Source: Lelliottia jeotgali (GTDB taxonomy: Bacteria > Pseudomonadota > Gammaproteobacteria > Enterobacterales > Enterobacteriaceae). From it: a DNA stretch of 64,000 nucleotides. The notes beneath the pieces are model-generated. The model was not told where the DNA came from, ran no database searches, and worked only from the letters and a program-made list of their open reading frames with translations. A program made the translations under genes and the position numbers. Numbering within the stretch: the stretch's first letter is position 1; every line of letters starts with the position of its first letter. Below, in pieces: positions 11,307 to 18,338 of the stretch. The stretch is from positions 1,488,001 through 1,552,000 of the forward strand of contig CP018628.1 in NCBI GenBank assembly GCA_002271215.1, in the 5' to 3' direction.

Positions 11307-11467
11307 AGTTCACCTTAAGGGAGAAAATGGACGGGAAATAGTGGATTTTGTGCAAGCTTTCTCATAAGTGTGCGTCGAAGTTTGGCATGATGCCGATACA
11401 GCCTGCTGTTACCGCAATCTCACGTTATGAAAATTTTTTCATTTAGCAAATGGAGCGAGATCACAAA

Positions 11468-12541
11468 ATGGATAAAAGACTCAAAATCGCTGAAATCGCC
11501 TCCCGCACGCAGCTTTCGATCAGCACCGTTTCTCGCGTGCTGGCCGGGAAGTCGAACACCAGTGAAAAAGCGCGAACCAAAGTGCTGGAATGTGCGCGGG
11601 GGCTGGGCGTCATGGACGGTATGGCCGCTGGACGTTTGTTGCTCAACAGCCTGGTGGTCTTCGCCCCGCAGCGCGCGTTTGACGAGCGGTCTGATATCTT
11701 TTACTACCGCGTGATCCAGAGTGTCAGCAAAGGACTGGCTTCGCACGAAGTTCGGCTTCGCTATTGCGCACTGGAAGAAAACGACAGTGACGCGCAGCTG
11801 TTCCTCGCGCGAATGAATGAAACCGACACCCAGGCGGCGATTCTGCTCGGCATCGACGATCCGCATATTCACGATCTGGCCGTCGATATTGGCAAGCCCT
11901 GTATGCTGATTAACTGCCGGGACCAGCGGATGCGCCTGCCGGCCGTGGCGCCAGACCATCGCGCGATTGGCGAGCGGGCGGCAGAGTATTTGTTCGAGAT
12001 GGGCCATCGCGAGGTGATGAACGTTCTGTGTCTGCGCCGCTACACAATGGAGCTGCGTCTGGCGGGCATCCGCGATGCGTGGCGCGGTCATAATCTGAAG
12101 TTTAACGACAAACGCGATCTGTTGGTGGTGCCGAGTTTCAGCGCCAAAGAGACTGAGCAGCAGGTGAGCGAGTGGCTGAGTCAGATGGCGGAAAAAGCGC
12201 TGCCGACGGCGTTTTTGGTTGGCGGGGATTTTATGGCGGCAGGCACTATTAGCGCGCTACAAAAGCACGGCCTGCGCGTCCCGCAGGATGTGTCGGTGAT
12301 GAGTATCGACGGCTTTAATCTGGCCGCGATTCAGGATGTGCCGTTAACGGCAGTACATGTTCCGCGTGATGAGCTGGGAACTGAAGCAGTGCATATGCTC
12401 CAGCAAAGGCTGATGCGCCCGGACGCGCCGGTCGGCACGTTGTTGCTGAACGGTACGCTGACGGTGCGGGAGTCGGTACGGCGGATACGTCAGGGGAAAC
12501 GACGCACCGCCGTGGAGCGGGAGGGGCTTTACGACGCTTAG
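11468..12541 (+). CDS. LacI-family transcriptional regulator
   Basis: Residues 1-50 form the LacI helix-turn-helix (LKIAEIASRTQLSISTVSRV), and the rest is a periplasmic-binding-protein-like effector domain with the usual VGGDFMAAGTISAL and VSVMSIDGF motifs. The ATG at 11468 is chosen because GGAGCGAGA lies 7 bp upstream; an in-frame ATG at 11450 has no such site. The 357-residue length is usual. It is divergent from the MFS-GH31 operon and so probably its specific regulator, with the glycoside or a breakdown product as inducer. Its stop overlaps the convergent ybiU stop by four bases. Confidence 0.88.
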   Translation: MDKRLKIAEIASRTQLSISTVSRVLAGKSNTSEKARTKVLECARGLGVMDGMAAGRLLLNSLVVFAPQRAFDERSDIFYYRVIQSVSKGLASHEVRLRYCALEENDSDAQLFLARMNETDTQAAILLGIDDPHIHDLAVDIGKPCMLINCRDQRMRLPAVAPDHRAIGERAAEYLFEMGHREVMNVLCLRRYTMELRLAGIRDAWRGHNLKFNDKRDLLVVPSFSAKETEQQVSEWLSQMAEKALPTAFLVGGDFMAAGTISALQKHGLRVPQDVSVMSIDGFNLAAIQDVPLTAVHVPRDELGTEAVHMLQQRLMRPDAPVGTLLLNGTLTVRESVRRIRQGKRRTAVEREGLYDA

Positions 12542-13794
12542 GCCATGCCGAGCGCGCGTTTCCCGTGGATATTGAGATCGTTCAGGGTAAAGCGGTCCTG
12601 CCAGGTTTTCTCGTAATCTTCGCGCGGGAAATCACCCGGTGACGCGCCGGTTTCCAGCGCCGCTTTGACTTTCTGCGCGTAGGCGAGGTTTTTCTCGCAC
12701 ATCGGTGCGGCAGGAATGTACATCACGTTGCCCCAACCCTGCTGATTATCCACCGGCGCGACGGAGTGGATCACATCGCAATGCCACCACACGGAATCGC
12801 CCGCTTCCAGCGCCGGAATACTGGTCAGCGCTTCGATAAGCAGCGGATGCCACTTCTCGGAGACCGGCAGCACGCGCCCTGGCGCAACGCCGCACAGTTC
12901 ATCTTCCGGCACATCGTCCAGCAGTGGACGCAGCAGAATGTAGGCCATCGCTTCCGGGATCGGCACCACGTGCAGCAGACCCTGATTCGGGATCATATCC
13001 GACAGCGCGGTCCAGCCCTGGAAGGTACGGAACACCGAACATTTGGTGGTGTTATCCACGGTGTACTCTTCCACTTCGGTGCGATGCGCCGCATTCCACG
13101 GATCGTACTGATCGATATTCCCGTCAAACACACGGGCAAACACCTGCTGATAGGCCGGGAGCAGCCAGCGCTCCAGCGCGCCAGAATCCGTATGCGCGCC
13201 CAGTCCTTTCGAGGTGGTGCCAGGCGGACGACGGCGGATGCGATCCGGGTAGATCACGCTGACATCCGGGTTGAACCACTGTTTGCCGTTGCTCTCAAAA
13301 GTCCACAAACGGTTCAGGAACGACTGCACCTGCGCCATCTCTTCGCTCTGACGCGCCTGCATCTGTGCCTGCGACCAGTAGATCGGGAAAATTTCCGGAC
13401 GCGACGCGGTCAGAGTGCCGAAGAAGTTATCCCCCGGCCCTTTGTACACCTCGTCAAACTGGTTGAGATCGAGATAGTCGAGCATCGAGTTATCCCACGC
13501 CAGCGCCTGCTCGCGCGGGAAATGACCTTTAATCACGGCGCATCCACGGCGTTTTACGGCTTCACGCTGTGCTGCCGTGATTTTCCCGTTCTTCACATCC
13601 TCGAAGGGAATGATCGGCCACACACTTTCACCCTTGGTTTTCAGGGCGTTGATTTCCGCCACGCGGGTGGCGATTTTGTCGCTGAGTTTATCAAAAACAC
13701 CCTGAACGTCGCCGATCTGCGCACGCAACTCGCGTTTCAACTGGCGAATGGCGGCTTTGTGGTCCGCAGGCAAAATTTCACTGGAGAAGGTCAT
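12538..13794 (-). CDS. ybiU: DUF1479 protein YbiU
   Basis: The 418-residue product matches E. coli YbiU, a protein of the DUF1479 family with a double-stranded beta-helix fold expected for 2-oxoglutarate/Fe(II) oxygenases. Candidate metal ligands include the GAHTDSGALERW segment and the distal CDVIHSVAPV segment. Its substrate is not known to me. The ATG at 13794 is favoured by a GAGG five bases upstream and by the conserved MTFSSEILPADHKAAI start; an ATG seven codons earlier is also open. A palindrome shared with the ybiV and ybiY-fsaA promoters lies 15-28 bp upstream of the start, so ybiU is likely part of the same regulon. Confidence 0.9.
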   Translation of the reverse strand: MTFSSEILPADHKAAIRQLKRELRAQIGDVQGVFDKLSDKIATRVAEINALKTKGESVWPIIPFEDVKNGKITAAQREAVKRRGCAVIKGHFPREQALAWDNSMLDYLDLNQFDEVYKGPGDNFFGTLTASRPEIFPIYWSQAQMQARQSEEMAQVQSFLNRLWTFESNGKQWFNPDVSVIYPDRIRRRPPGTTSKGLGAHTDSGALERWLLPAYQQVFARVFDGNIDQYDPWNAAHRTEVEEYTVDNTTKCSVFRTFQGWTALSDMIPNQGLLHVVPIPEAMAYILLRPLLDDVPEDELCGVAPGRVLPVSEKWHPLLIEALTSIPALEAGDSVWWHCDVIHSVAPVDNQQGWGNVMYIPAAPMCEKNLAYAQKVKAALETGASPGDFPREDYEKTWQDRFTLNDLNIHGKRALGMA

Positions 13795-13808: not shown

Positions 13809-13822
13809 CTTTCATTCGAAAG
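13809..13822 (-). promoter_or_regulatory. Shared palindrome, copy A (before ybiU)
   Basis: On the minus strand it reads CTTTCGAATGAAAG, two 5-bp arms around GAAT. The same 13-base core TTTCGAATGAAAG recurs at 14833-14845 and 18307-18319. It sits between a weak candidate promoter (TTGCAT 13870-13865, TAAAGT 13848-13843) and the ybiU start codon, a position suited to a repressor. Confidence 0.65.
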
Positions 13823-13952
13823 TAAAAGTGTCTACAAGTGATACTTTAAGTTAAAAATAAGTTAATGCAAGTTTAAAAACTTGACGGGCAGCACAGGATG
13901 GAAAAAGAGTGATCTGCCGGAGTATTACCCCGGCGAGAGAGGAAATCAGAGG

Positions 13953-14762
13953 TTAAAACGGAGCAGTATTGTCGAGCACGGCCTGAATGACGTTCAGCGC
14001 ACCCTGGTGGTTATTGTCATCGGTGTTGAATTTGCTGATGGTTTTGATGCTTTCCGCCGCATTGCCCATGGCGAAAGAGTATTTCACCAGCTTGAGCATC
14101 TCCGCATCGTTGCCGCTGTCGCCAATCGCCACGCACTCCTGCGGAGAGACATTCCAGCGTTTCAGCAGGCGGCTGATCCCGTTGGCTTTATGCAGGCCAG
14201 GAATGATCAAATCAACAAAGCCGAAGCCGCTGGTGACCGGTTTCATGATGCCGTCTAACGAGACGTGCAGTTTATCGATCAGATCAGGGATATCGCTGTC
14301 CGGCAGGTTCAGGGAGAACTTAAACAGTACATCGTCGATCTCCTGATAATCGCTGATGCGCTGTAAGCGGTGGTAGTGCTTCGACATTAGCGCGACGAAT
14401 TCGTCCGGCGCGTTTTTGCTGACATAGGCGCTTTCCAGCCCGCAGGCGACGAAGTTGAGCTGTTTGTCTTTCAGTAATTCGCCGATCACGATCTGAGATT
14501 CGTGACGCGTCAGTTCGCCGTGAAAAATTTGCTCGCCATGATCGAAGACCAGAGCGCCGTTTTCCGCCACGAAGGAGATCTGTTCTTTCAGTTCCGGGAA
14601 GAAGGAGATGAGCTGGTAATACTGATTCCCGCTGGCGACCACGAACTCGATGTCGCGGGCCTGAAGCTGCTGAAATTGCGCCATAAAGCGGTCACGATCG
14701 TACTGCTTGGCGTCATCAAGGAAAGTCCCGTCCATATCGGTGACGATAACTTTTACGGTCAT
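13953..14762 (-). CDS. ybiV: HAD sugar phosphatase YbiV (SupH), Cof subfamily
   Basis: This cytoplasmic HAD phosphatase starts with the nucleophile motif DMDGTFLDD (catalytic Asp near residue 9) and ends with [10 protein letters not shown], the Mg-binding motif IV, with a C2 cap between. E. coli YbiV dephosphorylates sugar phosphates and fructose-1-phosphate in vitro. At 269 residues it has the family length. It has its own promoter (TTGTGG 14827-14822, TAGAAT 14803-14798 on the minus strand) next to palindrome copy B, and a GGAGAG ribosome binding site. It is a close paralogue of ybjI at 36642 in this window. Confidence 0.95.
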
Positions 14763-14831
14763 ACATTGCTCTCCAGAATATTACTGCGACCAGCAACATT
14801 CTAATAACAATGTGACCCGAACCACAAATTT

Positions 14832-14846
14832 ATTTCGAATGAAAGT
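14832..14846. promoter_or_regulatory. Shared palindrome, copy B (before ybiV)
   Basis: ATTTCGAATGAAAGT shares the 13-base core with copies A and C and lies directly upstream of the candidate -35 element of ybiV, 70-85 bp before its start codon. Confidence 0.65.
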
Positions 14847-14851
14847 AAAGG

Positions 14852-14927
14852 CGCCGGGTGGCGGCTGCGCCTTACCCGGCCTAAGGGGAGAAACATGTAG
14901 GCCCGGTAAGCGTAGCGCCACCGGGCG
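14852..14927. repeat. Inverted REP pair between ybiW and ybiV
   Basis: REP palindromes lie at 14852-14884 and 14897-14927 in opposite orientation. They separate the ybiYW transcript from the ybiV promoter. Confidence 0.85.
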
Positions 14928-14933
14928 TGAAGG

Positions 14934-17366
14934 TTAAAGCGTATGCTCAGTACGGGCGATAATATCGTCCTGCGCATCCGGCGATAGGGCGGTGAAGAAT
15001 GCGGAATAGCCCGCGACGCGCACCACCAGGTCACGATACTGGTCAGGATGTTTCTTCGCTTCCAGCAGCGTCTCGCGCGACACGATGTTGTACTGAATAT
15101 GCCAGCCTTTATGCACCTCGAAGAAGGTGCGCAGGAGCACCATCAGTTTCTCGCGGTCTGAATCGTTTTCCAGCGTCGCCGGGTTCAGCTTCTGGTTCAG
15201 CAGCACGCCGCCCAGAATCGCCTCGGTTGGCAGTTTGCCGACCGAGCCAATCACCGCCGTTGGGCCGAGGTGATCGGTACCGGAAGCCGGACTTGCTCCT
15301 TCCGCCAGCGGCGTATGGGCCTTACGGCCGTCCGGCGTTGCCATCGTCGCTGCGCCAAACGGCACGTTCGCGGAGATAGACGACGTACCCGCGTAGTAAT
15401 TCCCGCCAATCGGACCGCGACCGTAGCGCGGGTTGTGATACTGCTTCAGCTCTTCAATATAGGTTTCATACGCACGGGCCAGCAGAAGATCCACGCTGTC
15501 ATCGTCGTTACCGTACTTCGGCGCGCCGTTGATCAAACGCTGGCGCAGCTGCTCATGAGTCAGACCGTCGTAGTCCTCTGCCAGCGCTTTCGCCAGCTGT
15601 TGCTGACCAATGGCTCCCTGTTCGAACACCAGTTTTTTCACCGCCGCCAGGCTGTTGCCGAGGTTGGCGATACCGACCTGCAAACCGGACACCCAGTCAT
15701 ATTTCGCGCCGCCTTGTTTGATGCTTTTTGCGCGTTCGATGCAGTCATCCACCAGCGCCGAGCACAGAATATCGTGGACGTTCTCCTCCAGCATGGTGTC
15801 GACCACGTACTCGATTTCGATCGATTTACGCGTGTAGTAACGGATCTGGTGATCCCAGGCTGCCATCACTTCGTCGAAGTTCTCGAAGTTACCCGCCGAC
15901 AGCGCTTTGTTCTGAGGCAGGAACACCTTGCCGCTGGTGGCATCGCGGCCACCTTCCATCGCTGCCAGCATCACGCGGGCGAAGTTGATAAAGCTCATGC
16001 CGGTGCAGCGATAGCCCCACTTGCCGCCGACGGCGGTTTCGATGCAGCCGATTGCCGCGTAATCGTAAGCGTCCTCTTTTTCGACGCCGAGTTTGATGAA
16101 CTCGGAGATAACAATTTCGTCGTTGTTAAACGCTGGCATCCCGAAGCCGCAGCGGATCACCTGTACGCAGGCGTCGAGGAAGTCGTTGCTCATCCCCGCG
16201 TGATAACGCACGCTCAGGTTTGGCTGGGTGGAGCGCAGACGACCGCAGGATTCCAGAATCGCATAGGAGAGCGGGTTGACCGCATCCATCGGCTCGCCGT
16301 TAACCAGTTTCTGCCCGCCGATAGTGACGTTCTGATACAGCGGGCTGCCCGCCGACGCTTTCGAGTGCGAGCCGGAGCGGATCTTGTTCACTTCCAGCAG
16401 CTTCAGCCAGCAGCTGTGCAGCAGTTCAATCGCCTGTTCACGACCGAGCGTGTTATTCAGCTCCACGTCACGGCGGTAAAACGGATAGAGATACTGGTCC
16501 ATACGTGCGAACGAAACCGAGTGGCCGTTGGACTCAATTTGCAGAATCAGCTGGATGAAATAGCACAGCTGCAACGCCTGCCAGAAGGTTTTTGGCGGCT
16601 CGTGGGCAATCACGTCGCAGTTTTCTGCCATTGCCAGCAGCTCGTTGCGGCGGCTTTCGCGGATCTCATTGCTCGCCATCTCACGTGCCAGGGCGGCAAA
16701 ACGCTGGATGTGCAGGCTGACCGCTTCCAGCACGATATCAATGGCTTTCAGGAACTGATCGCCGTGCAAATCTTCCAGCACGGTGAGGTTGATGCGAGTC
16801 CGGCGCTCGGCCACTTTGGCGCGCATGCCATCGAGGCCTTTTTCCAGCAGCAGCGGGAAGTTCACCGCCAGATGCGCATCGCCGGAGGTCATGTTGCCTT
16901 CGGCCTTGATGATGCCGGTTTCCAGCAGCCCTTTTTGTTCGTCGGTAAACATGCCGTAGCAGCGATCCTGCACCGTCTGGCCGCGCCACCACGGGCAGAC
17001 GTCGTGCAGTACGCGCTTGTTCTCTTCGCTCACCGCGAAGCCTGCGCCTGGACGGTCGGCCAGATCGTCGATCTCTTTTTCAATCCACGAGACAGTGTAT
17101 TCCGGGAAGATCGGCGCGGCGCGCACAACGCTTGCCTGGTTGCCGATAATCAGCTCGTCATGTTTGATCCAGATGGTGCGGTTGGCCAGATGATGGGCCA
17201 GCGCCAGGGCGCGACGCACCGGGATCGGTTTGTCCAGGTGCTGCTGGTACATTTCGGTGTAGTGCTGCGCGCGCTCGGTACAGACCGGCGGTTTCACGAT
17301 ATGCACCAGAGCGGTTTTGTGCGCCTTAATGCGGTCTGTCAGGGTGTTCAGATTCAGCTGTGTCAT
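14934..17366 (-). CDS. ybiW: Glycyl radical enzyme YbiW
   Basis: The 810-residue protein is an oxygen-sensitive glycyl radical enzyme. The radical site is the C-terminal RVAGYSAFF with the radical on G786; the active-site thiyl cysteine is C441 in GCIETAVGG, followed two residues later by E443, the C-x-E arrangement of the dehydratase-like branch rather than true pyruvate formate-lyase. It was long annotated as a putative pyruvate formate-lyase. I recall a report that the E. coli enzyme is a 1,5-anhydroglucitol-6-phosphate lyase feeding FsaA, which I cannot verify here. The gene starts four bases after ybiY, its activase, and they form an operon. Confidence 0.93.
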   Translation of the reverse strand: MTQLNLNTLTDRIKAHKTALVHIVKPPVCTERAQHYTEMYQQHLDKPIPVRRALALAHHLANRTIWIKHDELIIGNQASVVRAAPIFPEYTVSWIEKEIDDLADRPGAGFAVSEENKRVLHDVCPWWRGQTVQDRCYGMFTDEQKGLLETGIIKAEGNMTSGDAHLAVNFPLLLEKGLDGMRAKVAERRTRINLTVLEDLHGDQFLKAIDIVLEAVSLHIQRFAALAREMASNEIRESRRNELLAMAENCDVIAHEPPKTFWQALQLCYFIQLILQIESNGHSVSFARMDQYLYPFYRRDVELNNTLGREQAIELLHSCWLKLLEVNKIRSGSHSKASAGSPLYQNVTIGGQKLVNGEPMDAVNPLSYAILESCGRLRSTQPNLSVRYHAGMSNDFLDACVQVIRCGFGMPAFNNDEIVISEFIKLGVEKEDAYDYAAIGCIETAVGGKWGYRCTGMSFINFARVMLAAMEGGRDATSGKVFLPQNKALSAGNFENFDEVMAAWDHQIRYYTRKSIEIEYVVDTMLEENVHDILCSALVDDCIERAKSIKQGGAKYDWVSGLQVGIANLGNSLAAVKKLVFEQGAIGQQQLAKALAEDYDGLTHEQLRQRLINGAPKYGNDDDSVDLLLARAYETYIEELKQYHNPRYGRGPIGGNYYAGTSSISANVPFGAATMATPDGRKAHTPLAEGASPASGTDHLGPTAVIGSVGKLPTEAILGGVLLNQKLNPATLENDSDREKLMVLLRTFFEVHKGWHIQYNIVSRETLLEAKKHPDQYRDLVVRVAGYSAFFTALSPDAQDDIIARTEHTL

Positions 17367-17370
17367 AACA

Positions 17371-18270
17371 TTATCCTCGTAAGGTCGCAGTCAACCCATT
17401 CTGGGCCGCAAACTGTTGGGCAAAATCCAGTAACTCAGGGTTATCGAGCGGTTTGTCAGGGGCAGAGTAGGGAAGGCCGAGCAGGGTGTATTTGTTCATG
17501 CCAAGGGTGTGGTACGGCAAAAAGTGGATATCGCGGACGTTGAGTTCGTCGGCGGCGAAACGGGTGATGGCTTTAATCGAAGCTTCGTCGGCGTTAAAAC
17601 TCTGAATCAGCGGCACGCGGATGGTCAGCTGTTTTCCGGCGGCGGCCAGGCGTTTTAAATTTTCCAGGATGCGTTTTGCCGAGCCGTCGGTCCACTGTTT
17701 AAACACCTCGGCATCGACGTGTTTCAGGTCGGCGAGGAACAGATCAACATACGGCAAAGAGGGTTCGATATAACTCCACGGCACGTGCAGGCAGGTTTCA
17801 ACCGCGGTGTGAATGCCCTGTTCGTGGCTGGCTTTAAACAGCGAATGGGCAAGCTCCGGACTCATAAAGGGTTCGCCTCCGGAGAGCGTGATGCCACCGC
17901 CGCTGCGATCGTAAAAGGGTTTGTCGCGCAGGACAGTCGCCATAATGTCGGCCACCTGTTTTTCCTCGCCGCAGACCGTCAGCGCCTGGGTCGGGCAGCA
18001 GTCGGTGAGGGCGTCGAGATGGCTTTCGTTGAGTTTTTCGCGATGGATGATCAGTCCGTTCAGCGCACGGTCGATAATTCCCGGAACCGCCTGTTGGCAC
18101 AGGTCGCAGCCTTCGAGGCACAGACGCGCATCAAACAGCACATCTCGCGTGCGGGAGCGGCTTTCCGGGTTCTGGCACCAGCGGCAGCCGAGAGAGCAGC
18201 CCTTCAGGAACACCACGGTACGAATACCTGGGCCGTCGTGGGTGGAGTAACGCTGAATATTGAAGATCAT
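17371..18270 (-). CDS. ybiY: Radical SAM activating enzyme YbiY for YbiW
   Basis: YbiY uses S-adenosylmethionine and a [4Fe-4S] cluster to create the glycyl radical on its partner. The radical SAM motif CxxxCxxC is C25, C29 and C32. A ferredoxin-like insert with further cysteines (CLEGCDLC and DCCPTQAL) follows, as in activases of the glycerol-dehydratase type. SGGEPFM is the SAM-binding GGE motif. The length of 299 residues equals the E. coli protein. It has a GAGGCG ribosome binding site. Its promoter region, shared with divergent fsaA, carries palindrome C and an FNR-like site, fitting anaerobic expression. Confidence 0.94.
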
Positions 18271-18296
18271 ATTTTCGCCTCTTGTTGCGTATGAAG

Positions 18297-18302
18297 ATTA
18301 AA
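18297..18302 (-). promoter_or_regulatory. Candidate -10 of ybiY
   Basis: TTTAAT on the minus strand would place the transcript start near 18290, exactly 41.5 bp from the centre of the FNR-like site, the class II activator spacing. Confidence 0.45.
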
Positions 18303-18324
18303 TAACTTTCGAATGAAAGTTATT
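18301..18324. promoter_or_regulatory. Shared palindrome, copy C (between ybiY and fsaA)
   Basis: A perfect inverted repeat: arms AATAACTTTC (18301-18310) and GAAAGTTATT (18315-18324) around GAAT. Its core is identical to copies A and B. It overlaps the candidate -10 of ybiY and lies in the region shared with fsaA. Confidence 0.75.
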
Positions 18325-18338
18325 TTGATGTGCGTCAA
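18325..18338. promoter_or_regulatory. FNR-like site
   Basis: TTGATGTGCGTCAA matches the FNR consensus TTGAT-N4-ATCAA at nine of ten positions. It lies next to palindrome C, upstream of the oxygen-sensitive YbiY-YbiW system. Confidence 0.6.

Follow-up and report, generated by a model that had tools for sequence, protein, structure and literature searches.

The question raised by this locus is which regulator acts on a palindrome that recurs at three promoters of Lelliottia jeotgali. The palindrome, TTTCGAATGAAAG, is found in a stretch of 64,000 nucleotides of contig CP018628.1 (positions 1,488,001 to 1,552,000 of assembly GCA_002271215.1, hereafter the window), with exact copies before ybiU (13809-13821, minus strand), before ybiV (14833-14845, plus strand) and between the divergent genes ybiY and fsaA (18307-18319, plus strand). 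The genes ybiU, ybiV, ybiYW and fsaA are a real regulon, the core of which is already published for Escherichia coli, and the regulator of the set is very probably the DeoR-family protein YciT. It is likely that the palindrome, whose consensus is ACTTTCGAATGAAAGT, is the YciT operator and that a two-input switch composed of YciT and FNR serves an anhydrosugar-phosphate pathway. The present analysis shows the sites themselves, their conservation, gene linkage, co-occurrence and promoter spacing; YciT binding, the expression change in the deletion, the anaerobic activity of the ybiYW promoter and the YbiW chemistry come from published work in E. coli.

The initial annotation of this DNA had located the motif at the same three promoters, which is confirmed with a correction of one base at ybiU to the position given above. 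The three exact copies are the only ones in the 4,603,334-bp genome, for which base counts predict about 0.14 occurrences of a fixed 13-mer, so that the full motif, whose frequency across the genome had been raised as a check, is rare. Allowing one mismatch adds four genomic copies, while the reversed control pattern has four in total. With up to two mismatches the window holds four matches for 1.82 expected, which is no enrichment, and the looser TTTCN4GAAA stands at background level genome-wide (86 occurrences versus 101 for its reversed control). The absence of enrichment of this looser form leaves only the full motif informative. CTTTCN4GAAAG occurs at three places of the genome, two of them in the ybi-fsaA set. 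The copy between ybiY and fsaA does have the 10-bp perfect arms first described (18301-18310 and 18315-18324). The GAAT spacer is common to the three copies, as had been noticed, when they are read on one strand; in the direction of each gene, ybiU and fsaA have GAAT, ybiV and ybiY ATTC.

Conservation was assessed in a set formed by the best 80 of 481 YbiW loci, the window and E. coli MG1655, with 300 bp taken upstream of each gene. TTTCN4GAAA is present upstream of ybiU in 69/69 rows, of ybiV in 70/72, of ybiY in 79/82 and of fsaA in 62/65, many rows being near relatives, hence not independent, and the ybiY and fsaA counts coming mostly from one common intergenic region. Relatives thus keep the motif ahead of these genes, which answers the second check that had been proposed. 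The exact GAAT or ATTC spacer is kept in 58/69, 62/72, 71/82 and 54/65 rows, respectively. The control stretch upstream of ybiW, which is mostly the coding end of ybiY, has TTTCN4GAAA in 0/82 rows. Note that the ybiV count includes one locus (L042) whose sole site sits 293 bp upstream of the gene, and that the ybiV spacer is GAAT in some species and ATTC in others. Three ybiY rows lack the motif but retain the site with one, one and four changes; in the last of these (L066) CCTTC and GAAGG change together. MG1655 has exact TTTCGAATGAAAG at all three promoters. The lack of enrichment in the window at relaxed matching and the background level of TTTCN4GAAA would agree with chance repeats or with a structural element devoid of regulatory meaning, but the conservation upstream of the orthologues, set against its absence before ybiW, leads to rejection of this explanation, whose probability is practically nil. 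The proposal of one regulon for ybiU, ybiV, ybiYW and fsaA is supported by the genomic rarity of the motif and by its conservation.

The earlier statement that no regulator of this set is known was wrong. Chromatin immunoprecipitation with exonuclease digestion (ChIP-exo) in E. coli K-12, in the available portion of PMC8464067 (Gao et al. 2021), places YciT upstream of ybiV, ybiY and fsaA; deletion of yciT shifts expression of these three genes and of cusF, and the authors proposed an uncharacterised ybiU-ybiV-ybiW-ybiY-fsaA pathway. DNA chromatography combined with mass spectrometry, as described in sections of a 2025 preprint (PMC12132413), found YciT enriched at the ybiYW promoter. An excerpt of PMC7567609 lists phnA as a YciT target. 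The yciT orthologue of L. jeotgali (G000:C1:2442467-2443204) sits between pdeR/yciZ and yciH/pyrF (L243), remote from the ybi set, and its product is 79% identical to E. coli YciT. The protein scores 511.9 bits against NCBIfam NF040887 (cut-off 450) and features the HTH_DeoR domain (PF08220) and the DeoRC sensor domain (PF00455), both above cut-off. Regulators of the DeoR family generally respond to sugar phosphates, and an effector of this kind would be expected for YciT. The observation that no matching regulator gene is adjacent to the set thus holds in this genome, though yciT is a neighbour in many relatives. The LacI-type gene at 11450-12541 had been attributed to another cassette, which is compatible with the data; it was rejected as regulator of the set, being of LacI type and with nothing seen that connects it to the palindrome.

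Gene order and co-occurrence were surveyed in 197 genomes of the same family, YciT being called at E <= 1e-60; the linkage data cover all yciT and ybiW rows, while rows for ybiU, fsa and ybiV come mainly from contigs holding yciT. YciT is found in 83 of the 197 genomes and YbiW in 70, all of which (70/70) have YciT. Among the genomes that lack YciT, 40 have 3 Mb or more, and none of these encodes YbiW (Fisher p about 2e-21, with relatedness ignored). Within 400 bp of yciT (n=86) lie ybiW in 24 cases, ybiU in nine and a fsa gene in six, and yciT is at most 8 kb from ybiW, ybiU or fsa in 40/86. The number of ybiW genes at most 8 kb from yciT is 27, for 0.28 expected. A recurrent layout has fsa diverging from ybiY-ybiW-yciT with the operator in between. 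At yciT-linked loci a site within two changes of the 16-mer consensus is present at 23/27 ybiY and 6/9 ybiU promoters, and at loci where only fsa is linked the operator stands between divergent fsa and yciT in 3/7 (L138-L140). Inside linked operons the best matches directly before yciT differ from the 16-mer by five to eight changes. The picking of open reading frames missed fsa beside yciT in L217 and L221, and the tally of 38/52 loci linked within 5 kb is therefore low.

When 77 distinct YciT sequences are placed in a tree, those of E. coli and of this genome fall in a clade of 27 rows (support 95/96), all unlinked, which makes a single detachment of yciT in the lineage of E. coli and L. jeotgali the simplest reading; the tree labels L113, L122 and L125 as orphan though they are linked to ybiW, none of them belongs to the 27-row clade, and change counts were not used. 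Whether detached yciT regulates itself was also considered, and rejected, as no operator was found ahead of the gene in either E. coli or L. jeotgali. Some other arrangements of yciT were also recorded. G024 carries a partial ybiW beside yciT near a contig end. Two yciT genes are present in G017, G155 and G178 (L214/L213, L231/L230 and L237/L110, respectively), one beside ybiW and the other elsewhere. In G124 (C1:1104177-1105423, L227) ybiU is broken, in two pieces with one stop, within a yciT-ybiU-fsa-ybiY-ybiW cluster.

A number of observations weigh against the assignment of the palindrome to YciT. The equation of the palindrome with the ChIP-exo motif rests on co-location, and not all reported targets carry the palindrome. 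E. coli ybiO, a published YciT target, has CTTTCACCCGAAAG upstream with a score of 7.3, a value reached by 1.75% of null windows, but the targets cusF (0.9) and ompX (-2.0) have no good match, and cusF expression responds to the deletion. In the present genome ybiO (C1:1472121-1474319) lies within a stretch free of TTTCN4GAAA (1409880-1501810), and the K-12 palindrome has no counterpart there. YciT is missing from eight of the 67 genomes that have CTTTCGAATGAAA. Among the 27 ybiY promoters of linked loci, four (L219, L224, L229, L235) have a weak site or none, and 4/7 fsa-only loci (L212, L217, L221, L229) have no site within five changes. The position of the ybiV site does not obviously suit simple repression, RefSeq labels YciT a dual regulator, and PMC8464067, in the part available, ties the protein to osmolarity. 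Moreover, the motif class is not confined to YciT, as follows from palindromes found near other DeoR-type genes. The sole other exact TTTCGAATGAAA in this genome is before yjfP, where ATTTTCGAATGAAAAT is found beside ulaR (G000:C1:446286-446297, L244:6287), outside the window; the corresponding position in E. coli has TTTTCGAATGAAAA, and a similar site is present in seven further loci (L152-L155, L163, L164, L188). This palindrome may belong to UlaR or to YciT. G081, a genome without YciT, has three related palindromes (L184:5018-5330) ahead of a gene of DeoR type that adjoins a transketolase-N gene; the DeoR-type product is possibly a paralogue that uses this motif class.

These palindromes, together with the eight YciT-like matches in the genome of the window (YciT among them), favour the alternative that the operator belongs to another DeoR-family regulator, such as UlaR or a paralogue, or is common to several of which YciT is one binder. 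This is judged very unlikely: two independent published methods place YciT at these promoters (PMC8464067 and PMC12132413, each in the part available), yciT adjoins ybiW, ybiU and fsa in relatives, where neighbours were surveyed for yciT only, and YciT is present in every one of the 70 YbiW genomes. A second alternative, suggested by the 2021 study, takes YciT for mainly an osmotic or general stress regulator, with sugar-phosphate genes as minor targets. It can draw on the 49 ChIP-exo sites, some at membrane genes, and on the test of the deletion on sorbitol and NaCl, both reported in the same portion of PMC8464067, as well as on osmB, annotated as a neighbour of yciT in E. coli. It is sugar-phosphate genes, however, that have the conserved operators and the linkage to yciT, and the lack of good matches at ompX and cusF and of a palindrome at ybiO here also makes this alternative quite improbable. 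The assignment of the operator to YciT is retained.

The second input is suggested by a FNR-like box between the divergent ybiYW and fsaA. The best FNR match in the 82 ybiY promoters has at most one mismatch in 58 and at most two in 81, the corresponding numbers for shuffled sequences being 1 and 13. In the five commonest rows, which account for 75 ybiY promoters, the box is always at offset -20 from the operator. A TATAAT-like hexamer (at least 5/6 identities) is found exactly 30 nt from the centre of the FNR box in 57/66 distinct promoters, and in 0/66 at offsets 23-29 and 31-40; this test omitted L087, which has a poor FNR box. In class II FNR promoters the box is centred at about -41.5, which matches the 30-nt spacing to the -10 hexamer. 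A FNR-like box also precedes the operator, by 18 or 19 nt, in most of 30 yciT-linked loci, the exceptions being L128, L131, L229 and L235. A promoter scan returned two promoter-like sites for 2.1 expected and was not used.

The preprint PMC12132413 reports that the ybiYW promoter is active anaerobically and that an activator, which it does not name, acts just upstream; its main text, as available, has no mention of FNR. Among the papers searched, none has ybiY, FNR and anaerobic together. A portion of PMC6643234 calls the regulation of FsaA unknown and cites work in which fsaA expression rises upon transfer to anaerobic growth. From the promoter architecture, FNR is probably the anaerobic activator that the preprint left open. 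Another regulator could have this role, which would agree with the choice of ybiYW from the YgeV iModulon and with the activator position of about -20 relative to the predicted start, both given in the preprint; that position speaks against FNR in so far as it fits only if the start is about 20 bp off. This is nonetheless unlikely in view of the conserved box at fixed spacing to both the operator and the -10 hexamer and of the anaerobic rise of fsaA. In addition, the preprint states that its lysates were aerobic, and active FNR is therefore not expected in its samples. The notion of one anaerobic pathway put forward at first is only half borne out: ybiYW has the conserved FNR box, none was found at ybiU and ybiV, and YbiU looks like an oxygen-using enzyme.

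A switch in which YciT and FNR act together could work as follows. YciT most likely keeps ybiU, ybiV, ybiYW and fsaA repressed, and binding of a sugar-phosphate inducer would lift the repression, the candidates being 1,5-anhydroglucitol-6-phosphate and 1-deoxyfructose-6-phosphate. At ybiYW, activation in the absence of oxygen would come from FNR on the box at about -41.5; YciT on its operator, which occupies about -30 to -15 and so separates the FNR box from the -10 hexamer, would block RNA polymerase. YbiW, activated by YbiY, would convert 1,5-anhydroglucitol-6-phosphate to 1-deoxyfructose-6-phosphate. FsaA is presumably the next enzyme, cleaving 1-deoxyfructose-6-phosphate. YbiU and YbiV may have roles in the same pathway. 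In the lineage of E. coli and this genome yciT would have been detached while the operators stayed in place. The role of YbiW on 1,5-anhydroglucitol-6-phosphate, mentioned in the initial annotation, is in print: an excerpt of PMC12441222, citing Ma et al., gives 1-deoxyfructose-6-phosphate as the product. The YbiW of this genome is 93% identical to that of MG1655 and shares 99% and 98% identity with the proteins of two Lelliottia records.

The membership of ybiU and ybiV deserves separate consideration. YbiU matches PDB entries 2dbi, 2dbn and 2csg by sequence. Its motif GAHTDSGALERW (the HxD motif of Fe(II)/2-oxoglutarate oxygenases, here HTD) is present in 68 of 69 full-length YbiU proteins, with the distal form HCD[VT][IV]HSVAPV in 53/69, and the conservation of the HTD motif suggests an iron-dependent oxygenase. 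On these sequence features YbiU is a probable Fe(II) oxygenase. YciT accompanies a close YbiU in 46/46 genomes. A YbiU-family match of any kind occurs in 70 genomes, 69 of which have YciT, that is in 69/83 YciT genomes and in 1/40 of the larger genomes (3 Mb or more) that lack YciT. YbiU paralogues that are unlinked (45-50% identity) carry the operator in 15/24 cases with a score above 10, the null maximum being 7.9 in 600 windows; the one genome with a YbiU paralogue and no YciT (G113) scores -3.4. The presence of the operator at unlinked paralogues makes YbiU look like a core member of the regulon. In nine genomes yciT is directly beside ybiU; six of these lack YbiW, and four of the six have no FsaA/B match. 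Note that the ybiU frame has an in-frame ATG within the operator (open reading frame to 13815); the ribosome site appears better, by eye, at the 13794 start. The gene ybiV is a looser member, because among YbiV orthologues outside the ybi locus only 2/16 have the operator. A CRP-like box that may act before ybiV has at most two mismatches in 71/72 rows, and in 52, within the five commonest rows, it is at offset 18-19 from the operator.

These data raise the possibility, put forward tentatively and still doubtful, that YciT governs a pathway for one family of rare anhydrohexitol phosphates, split by oxygen into two arms. In the anaerobic arm YbiW, as radical lyase under FNR and YciT, would open the ring; in the aerobic arm the oxygenase YbiU, under YciT alone, and the phosphatase YbiV would act on the same or a closely related compound. 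The idea derives from the adjacency of ybiU and yciT, the co-occurrence of YbiU and YciT, the operators at the paralogues and the lack of a conserved FNR box at ybiU, where the best sites have at most two mismatches in only 12/69 rows (2/72 at ybiV). The 14/83 YciT genomes that have no YbiU-family match and the 9/24 YbiU paralogues that score below 10 argue against it.

Table 1. Positions of the genes and sites of the ybi-fsaA set in the window.
Feature	Position	Strand	Description
ybiU	12538..13794	-	DUF1479/Gig2-like, Pfam PF07350; HTD motif; probable Fe(II) oxygenase
Operator before ybiU	13809..13822		CTTTCATTCGAAAG on + strand; 15-28 bp upstream of ATG 13794
ybiV	13953..14762	-	Cof-type HAD sugar phosphatase
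CRP-like box before ybiV	14811..14826		TGTGGTTCGGGTCACA on - strand; putative role
Operator before ybiV	14832..14845		core 14833-14845; one arm imperfect, ATTTC for CTTTC
ybiW	14934..17366	-	glycyl radical enzyme; Pfam PFL-like and Gly_radical PF01228
ybiY	17371..18270	-	glycyl radical enzyme activase (radical SAM); TIGR02494 above cut-off
-10 hexamer of ybiYW (predicted)	18297..18302	-	TTTAAT; predicted +1 about 18290; 30 nt from FNR box centre
Operator ybiY/fsaA	18301..18324		inner 16 bp (18305-18320) at about -30 to -15 of the predicted ybiYW promoter
FNR box	18325..18338		TTGATGTGCGTCAA; differs from TTGATN4ATCAA at one position; in the divergent ybiYW/fsaA intergenic region
fsaA	18397..19059	+	fructose-6-phosphate aldolase; NF009296 above cut-off

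Palindromes of this type were also seen at other places of the surveyed genomes. In four genomes the same palindrome stands between syd and a sequence that resembles the csrB small RNA by eye (L147:4897, L148:5090, L172:4982 and L207:5055, in G178, G059, G011 and G145). Another, CTTTCGAATGAAAC, precedes the gene of a histidine kinase that resembles nitrate sensors in two congeneric genomes (L145:5876 and L146:5583); the kinase of L145 has PilJ, HAMP and HATPase domains.

The closest known system is the E. coli YciT regulon of PMC8464067, which, in the part available, has the same regulator and the same targets and also reports a palindromic motif. The FNR, gene-order, co-occurrence and YbiU-paralogue evidence is added here. 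YciT was read there as a regulator linked to osmolarity. The dissection of ybiYW in the available sections of PMC12132413 likewise has YciT near the start, anaerobic activity and an upstream activator; FNR as the probable activator is proposed here. The anhydrohexitol-phosphate pathway of YbiW/PflD, known through the excerpt of PMC12441222, has the same substrate and product, while its regulation and the links to YbiU and YbiV are proposed here. The promoter is like class II FNR promoters in its box at about -41.5, with the particularity that the gap from box to -10 hexamer is filled by a DeoR-type operator. The present analysis thus contributes the exact operators with their conservation, ties YciT to the set by gene order and co-occurrence, describes a probable class II FNR promoter and places YbiU among the core members of the regulon.

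If YciT and FNR act as proposed, a vaguely defined osmolarity regulator becomes a pathway-specific switch, the likely anaerobic activator of ybiYW is named, and the poorly known YbiU gains a regulatory home. The increase of FsaA by 163-fold in the piglet gut (in a portion of PMC3686733) and that of YbiW inside animals (in a portion of PMC3136414) agree with the proposed control. As 1,5-anhydroglucitol-6-phosphate is toxic and linked to two human neutropenias, according to the excerpt of PMC12441222, the way in which gut bacteria switch on its breakdown is of some medical interest.

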